From assembly GCF_009389715.1 (NCBI RefSeq), contig NC_052404.1:8082745-8146744 (forward strand): a DNA stretch of 64,000 nt, read 5' to 3'. Positions 50,460 to 53,853 of this stretch are shown here, piece after piece. The notes under the pieces were generated by a model, which saw only the letters and a list, made by a program, of their open reading frames with translations, was not told the origin of the DNA and did not search any database. The number at the start of each line of letters is the position of its first letter. The stretch's first letter is position 1. The position numbers and the translations under genes are program-made. This stretch comes from Phoenix dactylifera. Its lineage: Eukaryota > Streptophyta > Magnoliopsida > Arecales > Arecaceae.

Positions 50460-50483
50460 CACTACAGAAAAAGTGGATTTTAA

Positions 50484-50640
50484 CGACGCTTTTTTGCCGA
50501 CGCTTTTTTAAAGCGTCGGCAATTTTTAGCCTAGCGTCAACATTTGCCGACGCTTTTAACAAGCGTCGGCAACAGACGACGCTTATAAGGGTCGGGGTAG
50601 TTGCGGGCCTAAGACGACGCTAAAAAGCGTCGTCGGAAGC
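50484..50640. repeat. CACTA left subterminal repeats
   Basis: Five or more copies of gacgctt or its complement aagcgtc, several paired as short hairpins (gccgacgctttttt with aaagcgtcggc). These are the likely transposase binding sites. Confidence 0.9.
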
Positions 50641-50685
50641 CCACGACCTCTCCAAACTCCAAAGGCGTCGGAAGCCAACGAGCTT

Positions 50686-51447
50686 GTGTCAGAAGCCACC
50701 GCGCTCTCTCTCTCATCCCTCCTCCCTCAACCCAGAGATCGAAGAGAACGGAATGCAAGCATCTATTTAACCCTCCAATCCGTCGCCTCAAACCCTCCTC
50801 CTCCTTCCGAAACCCTCGACTACTGCGACCACTTCCCCCCTCCCCCTACCCCTGAAAACCCACCTCCTTACCCCCCGCCCGACCAAGCCGACGGCCAGAC
50901 TCTCGCCGCTGCGGGCGAGAGGACGCCGGTCTCCGAGAACGGCCTGGTTGCCGTGACCCACAGTGGCACCGACAAGGATGTGTCCGGCGGGGAGGAGGAG
51001 ATCAATAGCCGCCGCCGCCGCCGCCGCAGTCACTGGGACCCTCCGGTGTCCGGCGACAGCGCTGGCGATGGGTCTTCTGGTGGCCGAAAGCGAAAGACCC
51101 GATGGGCCGATGAGGAGCCCAAGCCGGTCGTCCAGCTCCCTGACTTCATGAAGGAGTTCGTCGCCGACCTCGACCCCGAAGTCCAGGCGCTCAACTTAAG
51201 GCTTCTTGAAATCAACCGGCTTCTTCAATCCGGCATGCCCCTCGACGACCGGCCAGAGGGCGCCCGCTCCCCCTCTCCGGAGCCAATCTACGACACCATC
51301 GGTATCAGGATCAATACTCGGGGGTATCGAGCAAGGGAGCGGCTGACGAAGGAGCGGCAGGAATTCATCTCCCAGCTCATCCGCCGGAACCTAGTGTTCA
51401 AGCCCTCGGCCGACTACCGCCCTCCCAAGCTCCAGAAGAAGTTCTAT
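50686..51447 (+). pseudogene. SF1: captured 5' part of splicing factor SF1 (branchpoint-binding protein)
   Basis: An open frame that from about base 50780 matches plant SF1/[39 protein letters not shown], then the helix-hairpin domain that binds U2AF65 ([79 protein letters not shown]). Similarity stops at about 51447, before the KH RNA-binding domain, where aldolase sequence begins in another frame. The 396-residue frame running on to 51876 is therefore a chimera whose C-terminal part is out-of-frame aldolase. The piece has no stop codon and could still be translated. Confidence 0.88.
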
Positions 51448-51454
51448 TCTGGAT

Positions 51455-51815
51455 CCCGACTCCGCACCCCTCTCCCCCGAACCGCGGATCCTCAAGTCCC
51501 GCCTCGTCGCCGGCGAGACCCTCTACGGCCTCTTCCTCCTGCGCTCCTCCCCGACCCTCGCCGAGATCGCCGGCCTCGCCGGCTACGACTACATGGTCGT
51601 CAACATGGAGCATGGCTCTGGCAGCATCGTCGAGGCCCTCCCTTGTCTCCACGCCCTCGCCGCCGCCCGCACCCCGGCCATCCTCCGCCTTCCGGAGCTC
51701 TCTGCCGCCTGCGCCAAGAAGGCCCTCGATCTCGGCCCCCAGGGACTCATGTTCCCCGTGATCGAGTCCCCCGGCGCCGCCGAGCTCGCCGTCTCCCGCC
51801 GCGCGGCGTCCGCGG
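51455..51815 (+). pseudogene. captured fragment of an HpcH/HpaI-type aldolase
   Basis: In its own frame it reads [69 protein letters not shown] and [19 protein letters not shown]. This is the N-terminal part of the plant aldolase family related to bacterial 2-keto-3-deoxy-L-rhamnonate aldolase. The usual metal-binding glutamates further on are missing. Near 51800 a short internal loss shifts the frame before a residual RGVRG-type motif. The GC content is much higher than that of the following fragment, as expected for a separate donor gene. Confidence 0.85.
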
Positions 51816-51819
51816 GAAA

Positions 51820-52886
51820 CATCAGAATATGAAGATGAGAGGATATCAAGGAAAAATGTCAACTTCCAACTCGTAAGAACTTATCAATTCTCTTACTGGA
51901 TGTGTCATAACACTCCGGCTTTGAATGATAGTAGTCCAATGGAGTTGTTTTAGGTTTTGCAAGACTTATATTTTGTTCGTTTATATGTTTATTTATCCTC
52001 CAACTGATCATTTTTCAATTTGAAACAGGAAAATACCAGTGATGAAGTTTCGGGGATGACTGCTAAACTCTCCTCTGTCCAGCTTGAAAAGGTTTCAACT
52101 AGTCCTGCTTTGAAACTTCCCCAGTTATTTAGTTTAGCTCCAAATTCATTAGGGAAAGGCATGCACACACCAAAGCGACATGCGTCAGCTACCCAATCAA
52201 ACCAACAAAGTCTGCCACCCTTTACAAAAGCTCAAACTGATAGTGCAACACAAGGTTGGCACCTCTGGTTGTCTGACTACTTGAGTATTTTCCCATAAAT
52301 ATCTGCTGAATTTTAAGCTTCTTTGCTTGTTTTCGTACTTCTCTAGTTTTCTGGTGATAAGGGCATGACCAATCTTCTGTATATTATTGTTTTTCTACTC
52401 AGTTAATTCCTTTCTTTTCCTGTTTTCACAGATAGTGATGGTTATCATGCTCAGAAACTTAGGTGTTCTGTTCGTGAAGCTGCATTGCCAAGGCTATCAA
52501 ACAATACAGAATGGTCCCAAGAGAAGAGCAGTGATGATGGTCCTGAGCACTTCTTCATGCCTCTCTCAACAGGTCTTTCCCGAAAAGAGGTAGATGCCGT
52601 TCCAAATCGAAGAAAACAGCAACTGGTTTTCTCTCCACCAGAAATCCATGTCTCCAGGAATACAAAAGATCTCCCTTCTAACACCAGGAGCCAGTTAAAT
52701 TCAGTGCAAGTTAAGTCATATAAATTGAATGGACTTGACGATTATAAAAAACAGGCAGAGCTACTTCAGCCAGCCCTTGGTAATGCATGGAGCACATTTA
52801 CCGACATTGATGATATTCTGGATCAAGTGTTCTCACCTCCATTGCTACTGGAATCATGCTTCCAGGATACATACGAGGACTTGCTC
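51820..52886 (+). pseudogene. captured C-terminal exons of a host gene, resembling augmin subunit 6
   Basis: Three exon pieces with intact splice sites: about 51820-51872, 52029-52254 and 52432-52886. Phases fit (0, then 1), giving [86 protein letters not shown] and DTYEDLLG. The ending DQVFSPPLLLE followed by YEDLL recalls the C-terminus of plant AUG6/HAUS6, a subunit of the microtubule-nucleating augmin complex. That identity is from memory and tentative. The true last codons are lost at about 52886, where EPSP synthase intron begins. Confidence 0.65.
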
Positions 52887-53014
52887 GGTAGATATAACAA
52901 TGCCCTTACTGTTTTCTGCAATGATTTAAGTATCATTTTTTTAATTAGTTGTGTGGCACCTAGACTCATGCAGGAGTGTTCCTGCTGTGTCTCTGTTTTG
53001 CCCTTATGATGTAG

Positions 53015-53225
53015 GGTGATGTGAAATTCGCAGAAGTTCTTGAGAAAATGGGAGCCAAGGTTACATGGACTGAGAACAGTGTCACTGTTACTGGTCCACC
53101 ACGAGATCCTTCCAAGAGAAAAAACTTGCGTGCCGTTGATGTAAACATGAATAAAATGCCCGATGTTGCCATGACCCTTGCTGTTGTTGCGCTATTTGCG
53201 GATGGTCCAACAGCCATTAGAGATG
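53015..53225 (+). pseudogene. EPSPS: captured EPSP synthase exon with flanking introns
   Basis: One exon of 70 codons plus one base, between an acceptor (ttatgatgtag) and a donor (ATG|GTAAGT). It reads [38 protein letters not shown] and [20 protein letters not shown], almost unchanged from plant 5-enolpyruvylshikimate-3-phosphate synthase, including the conserved Asp in MPDVAMT. The exon boundaries (before GDVKF and after AIRD) match the known intron positions as I recall them. Part of the upstream intron (from about 52887) and downstream intron were carried along. The fragment is too short to be an enzyme. Confidence 0.92.
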
Positions 53226-53462
53226 GTAAGTTTTAGCTTGCACTCTTGCAAGCTTATAACTTGTTCATATAAATTGGTATCTGAAATTAGTTGGCAGTGA
53301 TTTGGAAAGCAGTCATCTTATAGCTTCCCTTTCTTAATTTTATGTATCCATAGAATGTCTTATCTTTTATTATAATTATTATTTTTATTATGATTAGGCA
53401 GCACATATTTTTTGACCTTTATAATTTACATTCGTATTTTTATTTTTTTTTAAAAAAAATAG

Positions 53463-53705
53463 CAATCCCCGACGCTTTAAAGCGTCGGCGAAAACGAAAA
53501 ATAGATTGGGCTTTATCGACGCTTTAAAGCGTCGGGAAAGCCGTTTTTGCCGACGCTTTCTTTAGCGTCGGCAAATCCCTGTTTTTGCCGACGCTTCCTC
53601 TTAGCGTCGGCAAAAACCGGACCCACGCCCACCTGCCCGACGTCTGACCCACGCTTTGGGTCGCGTGGGCTGGGAATTCGCCGACGCTTATAAGCGTCGG
53701 TAGAG
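53463..53705. repeat. CACTA right subterminal repeats
   Basis: Five hairpin-like pairs of ccgacgctt and aagcgtcgg (for example cgacgctttaaagcgtcgg at 53470 and 53519). Mirrors the left subterminal zone and confirms the element's right side. Confidence 0.9.
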
Positions 53706-53853
53706 ACCAAAAAAAGCGCCGCGAGTTATTCCTTCTTTTGTAGTGTATGGAGCTACATCTCAAATTGAAAGCCAATCCATGTGGAGATTAGGTTGAGCTA
53801 GACGTGCATTTGACCTGACCGGCACAATTTTAGCTGAAATCACCCATTAGATG

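Follow-up and report, generated by a model that had tools for sequence, protein, structure and literature searches.

Probable stepwise assembly of a multi-gene Pack-CACTA transposon in the date palm, and a candidate donor gene lacking the captured exons

The element and its captured host sequences

In the date palm, Phoenix dactylifera, a stretch of 64,000 nucleotides (C13:8082745-8146744, hereafter the window) contains a CACTA element of 3,286 bp at window positions 50460-53745, with TAT on both sides, which by the features of its sequence is a CACTA transposon, probably non-autonomous (Pack-CACTA). A 3.3-kb element with clean CACTA ends and a TAT duplication had been proposed in a first-pass annotation of the same DNA, and its exact coordinates were borne out. 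The left 3-bp target-site duplication (TSD; 50457..50459, unstranded) is followed by the 5' terminal inverted repeat (TIR; 50460..50473, + strand), which reads CACTACAGAAAAAG, while the 3' TIR (53732..53745, - strand), which reads CTTCTTTTGTAGTG on the + strand, precedes the right TSD, TAT (53746..53748, unstranded). Inside the TIRs lie the 5' subterminal repeats (50483..50633, + strand), with CCGACGCTT..AAGCGTCGG palindromes, and a 3' end termed type II, also with subterminal repeats (53402..53731, + strand, left limit approximate), which is common to the window element and those on C33, C3, C1, C6, C9, C156 and C1550. The CCGACGCTT/AAGCGTCGG palindromes are subterminal at both ends of the element, and its subterminal repeat motif is GCCGACGCTT. 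Captured pieces and ends account for most of the sequence, and a Pfam scan of 5 of the 37 listed open reading frames (ORFs) of at least 50 amino acids in the element found no transposase.

Two other kinds of gene-carrying transposon were considered. Pack-MULEs have long TIRs and TSDs of 8-11 bp, and this identity was rejected because the element has a 3-bp TSD and CACTA ends. Helitrons are without TSDs and end in TC...CTRR, and this identity was likewise rejected, since CACTA ends and TSDs are present.

Four captured pieces, from SF1, an HpcH/HpaI aldolase gene, AUG6 and an EPSP synthase gene, are found in the element, all on the sense strand and with introns included; Pfam and PDB matches thus substantiate the earlier description of four host gene pieces in one orientation. 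The SF1 piece (50771..51446, + strand; element 312-987), which matches Pfam SF1-HH (E 3.6e-23), lacks the native ATG and is 95% identical to its donor at C14:3973359-3974041(-). The aldolase piece (51450..51816, + strand; element 991-1357; Pfam HpcH_HpaI, E 8.7e-16) is 91% identical to a gene at C17:3741771-3742493(-), and after it comes a short aldolase C-terminal remnant (51824..51848, + strand) from an internal deletion common to the relatives that carry SF1 and aldolase. A further remnant of ~27 bp (51846..51872, + strand), overlapping the preceding one by 3 bases, belongs to a sequence termed X1, which is 463 bp long in the elements on C33 and C156. The AUG6 piece (51873..52972, + strand) begins at a 5' splice site and is 80% identical (82.9% gap-free) to the gene on C10; it comprises exons at 52029-52254 and 52432-52887, two whole introns, one ahead of the exons and one separating them, and a portion of a third intron. 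No Pfam family was matched by the captured AUG6 exons themselves, and their identity comes from the homologous gene on C10, whose upstream exons match PDB 9nba_F (AUGMIN subunit 6; E 6.4e-30), so that the piece previously called augmin-like can be assigned to this subunit. The EPSP synthase piece (52976..53389, + strand; element 2517-2930) contains an exon (53015-53225) with flanking intron and matches Pfam EPSP_synthase (E 7.7e-14) and PDB EPSPS (E 1.4e-37). It is 99% identical to C17:5098279-5098692(-) over exon and intron for 414 bp (1,029 bp in C33), in agreement with the proposal of capture at the DNA level.

The parent loci are dispersed, with SF1 on C14, aldolase and EPSP synthase 1.3 Mb apart on C17, and AUG6 relatives on C10 and C14. 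The pieces are therefore not contiguous in a host locus, and derivation from a single such locus was rejected. The search for parent genes recommended at first pass thus located those of SF1, aldolase and EPSP synthase, and that of AUG6 only through the homeolog argument given below.

Relatives of the element and the order of assembly

The genome searched was a 773-Mb assembly of 2,391 contigs, in which the element found at least 115 matches, the best 40 of 1,676 candidates being scored, so that copy numbers are lower bounds. Near full-length copies on C51 (3,294 bp) and C139 (3,355 bp) are each 99.3% identical to the window element over aligned bases, and their flanks differ from those of the window, which places them at unrelated sites and shows the element to have been mobile. 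The ends were found again in other elements, a recurrence that the first-pass annotation had put forward as a check; 14 elements, the window's included, have both ends placed, and in 12 of these the 3-bp flanks are identical.

The relatives differ in what they carry. No fewer than 19 further loci among the matches listed have an aldolase piece next to the 5' end of the element but no SF1, at 87-94% identity to the window piece and in several cases with open frames of 237-365 amino acids; of these, C8:2460840 and C1354 were read, and C6 is similar. The element at C8:2459500-2462200, with TAA/TAA flanks, has an open frame of 329 amino acids that represents most of the aldolase host gene. Presumed host genes, so classed because no CACTA ends lie within the ~3 kb read, are C17:3741771 (369-amino-acid frame, 91% identical to the window piece) and C18:9697560 (419 amino acids, 84.5%). 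Pfam HpcH_HpaI matches in the genome number at least 79 from 100 scored candidates, host genes and remnants included; as an observation in its own right, CACTA elements have raised the copy number of this aldolase gene (loci L034-L036 and L023 among them).

SF1 and aldolase together, with the internal deletion and a 3' end reading TTTTTCTTGTAGTG, are found in the elements C26a, C15, C4, C14b and C7. In the C7 relative (L021), a 266-bp stretch of SF1 (element 504-769) is inverted. The base preceding the C26a element (L012) is itself preceded by TTTTTGTAGTG, and this element may directly adjoin the terminus of a second CACTA element; the sequence upstream of it showed no similarity to the family.

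The element on C33 (3,875 bp) is like these SF1-plus-aldolase elements in its 5' half, up to element position ~1395, after which come X1 (463 bp), a receptor-kinase-like (RLK) piece of ~527 bp, 1,029 bp of EPSP synthase sequence (99.03% identical to the EPSP synthase gene) and the type-II 3' end. X1 of C33 is also present in C156 at 99.6%, along with a like 3' end, and the RLK piece is 96% identical to a sequence on C255, which we take to be the 5' part of a receptor-kinase-like gene. In the window element and its copies on C51 and C139, the 5' half is followed by ~27 bp of X1 and then by AUG6, and no more than the final 414 bp of the EPSP piece are present; compared with C33, AUG6 stands where most of X1, the RLK piece and 615 bp of EPSP would be. 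The C3 element has a shortened SF1 piece, 666 bp of a different gene (99% identical to C17:9515936 over 656 of the 666 bp, with a second copy on C18 at 76%) and an EPSP piece whose start lies 18 bp upstream of that in the window element. The C1 element looks like a deletion of the C3 type, because its SF1 piece ends where that of C3 does and it contains the initial ~17-20 bases of the new gene. The junction between EPSP and the 3' end is the same in the window, C33 and C3 except for one base in C3, and EPSP was therefore captured once; the longer EPSP of C33 is likely the older state, because C3 also has part of the extra sequence.

The structures of the following steps are seen in the relatives, and we infer their order. 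The series would begin with CACTA elements holding most of the aldolase gene in many copies, followed by gain of the first SF1 exon and loss of the aldolase middle. In a third step, represented by C33, the 5' half of such an element would have been joined to X1 and a 3' end like that of C156, together with RLK pieces and 1,029 bp of EPSP. In a fourth, AUG6 exons would have taken the place of the interior of a C33-like element, 615 bp of EPSP included, to give the window type, and in a fifth this type would have reached three copies at different sites. In the sister lineage of C3, the inside would have been replaced by another gene instead. The serial capture proposed at first pass is upheld insofar as stepwise assembly is seen in relatives; simple accumulation is not, as modules were also replaced and the ~27-bp remnant of a further piece is present.

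The joins would have arisen through error-prone break repair or fusion of adjoining insertions. Microhomology ranges from 0 to 6 bp, with short fillers, one of them copied from next door: TCA is common to both sides of the join between the 5' half and X1, GGCGAG is shared at the SF1/new-gene join of C3, and TTT at the join in C1. Fillers of about three to ten bases occur at the SF1/aldolase, AUG6/EPSP and new-gene/EPSP joins and one of about twenty at RLK/EPSP, while at the X1/RLK join in C33 11 bases (GCAGATAATCT) duplicate a stretch 28 bases upstream. In these features the joins are like the products of error-prone repair with template switching that the available part of a report on animal Pack-TIRs describes (PMC8277862). 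The other route, the Catoni model, in which adjacent Pack-CACTA insertions fused and so exchanged modules, rather than undergoing break repair within one element, has close to an even chance. Fusion of neighbouring insertions is the capture model published for Pack-CACTA, as far as the accessible portions of the sources extend (PMC8903248, PMC13317346), and the two unlike halves of C33, in which the SF1-plus-aldolase 5' half meets the X1 and type-II 3' end known from C156, are what it expects. However, the window and C3 elements retain both C33-like flanks around their new inserts, and the short fillers, including the templated one, look like repair; most joins fit both routes.

Movement of the family would have used transposase supplied from elsewhere. 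At least 150 matches to the TNP2 profile (PF02992) were found in the genome, the best 150 of 534 candidates being scored, and among the matches listed eight on eight contigs have an identical score of 289.7, with frames of 666-779 amino acids, which suggests a recently active CACTA family. On C1550 (L024), a piece of the transposase-associated domain PF13963 accompanies a related terminus (76% over 113 bp). The end of a type-II element apparently interrupts the CACTA relative at this locus (L024 3062-5934).

The AUG6 donor and the loss on C14

When the captured 1,100-bp AUG6 sequence was used as a DNA query, it found C13, C139, C51 and C10 (80%) only, all four candidates being scored, and the other located donors are 91-99% identical as against the 80% of C10 AUG6. 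SF1 has copies on both C14 (95% to the element) and C10 (82%), because of which a homeolog of the C10 AUG6 gene could be expected on C14. With the first 4,013 bases as query, in place of a 9.5-kb query that was swamped by a dispersed repeat, AUG6 upstream sequence matched C14:14,339,891-14,357,345. The C14 gene aligns collinearly with that on C10 as far as C10 position 3938 (L018 coordinates), and collinearity resumes at ~5230-5253, with the last exon kept. Between the collinear blocks C14 has an unrelated scar of ~220 bp, free of N, and ~1.3 kb is missing; the captured AUG6 segment corresponds to 4014-5153 (L018 coordinates) and falls wholly within the missing stretch.

The captured piece and the C14 flanks have diverged from C10 to the same extent. 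The piece matches C10 at 907 of 1,094 aligned bases (82.9%), and the C14 flanks match C10 at 748/914 (81.8%), 546/661 (82.6%), 210/245 (85.7%), 102/131 (77.9%) and 177/221 (80.1%). The two captured exons are open over 227 codons, differ in length from C10 only by multiples of three, and have a ratio of nonsynonymous to synonymous substitution rates (dN/dS) of 0.43, as would be seen had the greater part of the divergence accumulated while the gene was functional. These sequences are most simply read to mean that the AUG6 exons in the transposon are those lost by the C14 homeolog. It is unlikely that the piece came from a third AUG6 copy, or from a haplotype outside the assembly, with the C14 deletion being unrelated: one genome only was searched and nothing closer than 80% was found outside the elements, as such a source would allow, but the captured piece diverges from C10 just as the C14 flanks do, and the stretch absent from C14 is the very one found in the element.

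As a separate observation, the truncated C14 AUG6 exon reads in frame for ~46 codons into the scar (C14:14,339,656-14,339,899, L048) before a stop, a possible new C-terminus; a Pfam scan of this 46-amino-acid reading found nothing.

Stepwise construction of the element within a mobile family, with AUG6 taken from the C14 homeolog, is the best explanation of the whole, at a probability of roughly 0.88. Several observations weigh against it. The scar on C14 has no CACTA remnant, only 12-16-base matches to the elements at chance level, and is without other match in the genome; no host gene was identified for X1; and the 3-bp flanks are unlike in C51 (ACT/GCT) and C33 (CTT/GCT). An empty site of the window insertion was looked for in the assembly and not found, nor was an autonomous partner, the one TNP2 locus read (C6) sharing no subterminal repeats with the element. 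In addition, the donors of SF1, aldolase, EPSP and the new gene of C3 retain the captured stretch, and cutting out is therefore not the rule.

How cut-and-paste transposons capture genes is disputed, between copying in break repair and excising the DNA between neighbouring insertions, and these two routes predict opposite donor states. For AUG6, it may tentatively be proposed, at somewhat less than even odds, that the exons were physically cut from the C14 gene by the transposon, which would have left a scarred donor, so that a chimera was built and a duplicate disabled in one event. The deletion margins around the captured piece are only ~75 and ~76-99 bp, and by rough arithmetic a random 1.3-kb deletion on ~13 kb would contain the piece in 1-2% of placements; this near-exact fit of loss to capture favours a single event. 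About evenly matched with it, and itself just short of an even chance, is the possibility that the exons were copied from an intact C14 gene by gap filling or template switching and that C14 later lost them by an unrelated deletion, as duplicates often do after genome duplication. The other captures, which left their donors whole, speak for such copying, as does an insertion of ~13 kb between aligned blocks of C14 AUG6, which a decaying duplicate may have; the tight margins and the small fraction of random placements speak against it.

If the exons were cut out, transposon gene capture would be a route for exon loss in duplicated genes after genome duplication. The donor-side loss hints that transposons sometimes cut host exons out and do not only copy them, and the presence of relatives for each step, together with one likely donor with a matching loss, makes the capture question testable across accessions and sister palms.

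Coding potential and comparison with known systems

The splice sites are intact, as the first-pass annotation had stated, with three GT-AG pairs that give a spliced model of 2,306 nt, and a spliced chimeric RNA from the element is possible. In the model, SF1, aldolase, AUG6 and EPSP stand in frames 1, 2, 0 and 1. The SF1 frame is the longest, at 447 codons; it passes through aldolase in the wrong frame and terminates some nine codons after entering AUG6. AUG6 and EPSP are each in a separate frame (265 and 123 codons) in which the neighbour is read out of frame; none of the ORFs of the spliced model has two captured domains in frame. A functional fusion protein was rejected because the pieces are in incompatible frames, and the absence of the native SF1 ATG from the capture makes it unlikely as well.

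It is very improbable that the element has become a functional chimeric gene maintained by selection. Three GT-AG introns, the long open frames of SF1 and AUG6, and an SF1 element-to-donor dN/dS below 1 in all six comparisons (0.27-0.58, the donor's own branch included) could be taken in its favour. Set against these are the frames after splicing, the missing ATG, and SF1 dN/dS values among five copies of 0.50-3.63 in nine of ten pairs, with few changes, the tenth being undefined for lack of a synonymous change. The aldolase ORFs of three sister element copies have pairwise dN/dS of 0.27-0.47, with rates by codon position, CpG sites excluded, of 0.053, 0.034 and 0.065 for C11-C8 and of 0.037, 0.039, 0.098 and 0.022, 0.039, 0.075 for two C26b pairs. 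Truncated aldolase stubs of SF1-bearing copies also have low dN/dS (0.16 for window-C4, 0.20 for C26a-C4), so mutation bias may explain the low ratios, and no constraint on the aldolase ORFs is claimed.

Elsewhere in the window, positions 57505-58133 have long open frames on both strands and repeated RTKGFCSAEQCRTEAF-like motifs, and are probably a tandem or palindromic repeat.

The closest known system is Tgm-Express1 of soybean, a CACTA element of 5.7 kb with five unrelated host gene fragments, in which introns and splice sites are kept as in the one described here, according to the available text (PMC1947982). Tgm-Express1 lies within an F3H intron and its chimeric transcripts were sequenced, whereas the window element is known from DNA alone; the same text indicates that such elements can produce spliced chimeric RNAs (PMC1947982). 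In contrast to Tgm-Express1, the window family offers relatives that represent successive steps, and a loss on the donor side. The Pack-CACTA and other Pack-TYPE elements of Arabidopsis, rice and maize are likewise non-autonomous, with TIRs and TSDs, genic DNA from several loci, and conserved ends around a new interior, as far as the accessible main text describes them (PMC8903248). A word search of that text found no report of donor loss, and the window family differs in its internal replacement, its hybrid of two Pack elements and its gutted homeolog. In animal Pack-TIRs, the portion of the report available describes joins that similarly have a few bp of microhomology and short inserted sequences, for which gap filling or template switching was proposed, but these concern animal genomes, and the captures are presented there as duplications that have a parental copy (PMC8277862). 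A limited literature search, over sources available in part, found no published Pack-CACTA whose donor had lost the captured exons, a weak negative, and no multi-gene CACTA report for palms. Multi-gene CACTAs with retained splice sites are thus already known from soybean, and Pack-CACTAs drawing on several loci from maize; the uncommon part of the date palm family is its readable series of replacements together with a likely donor that lacks the captured exons.

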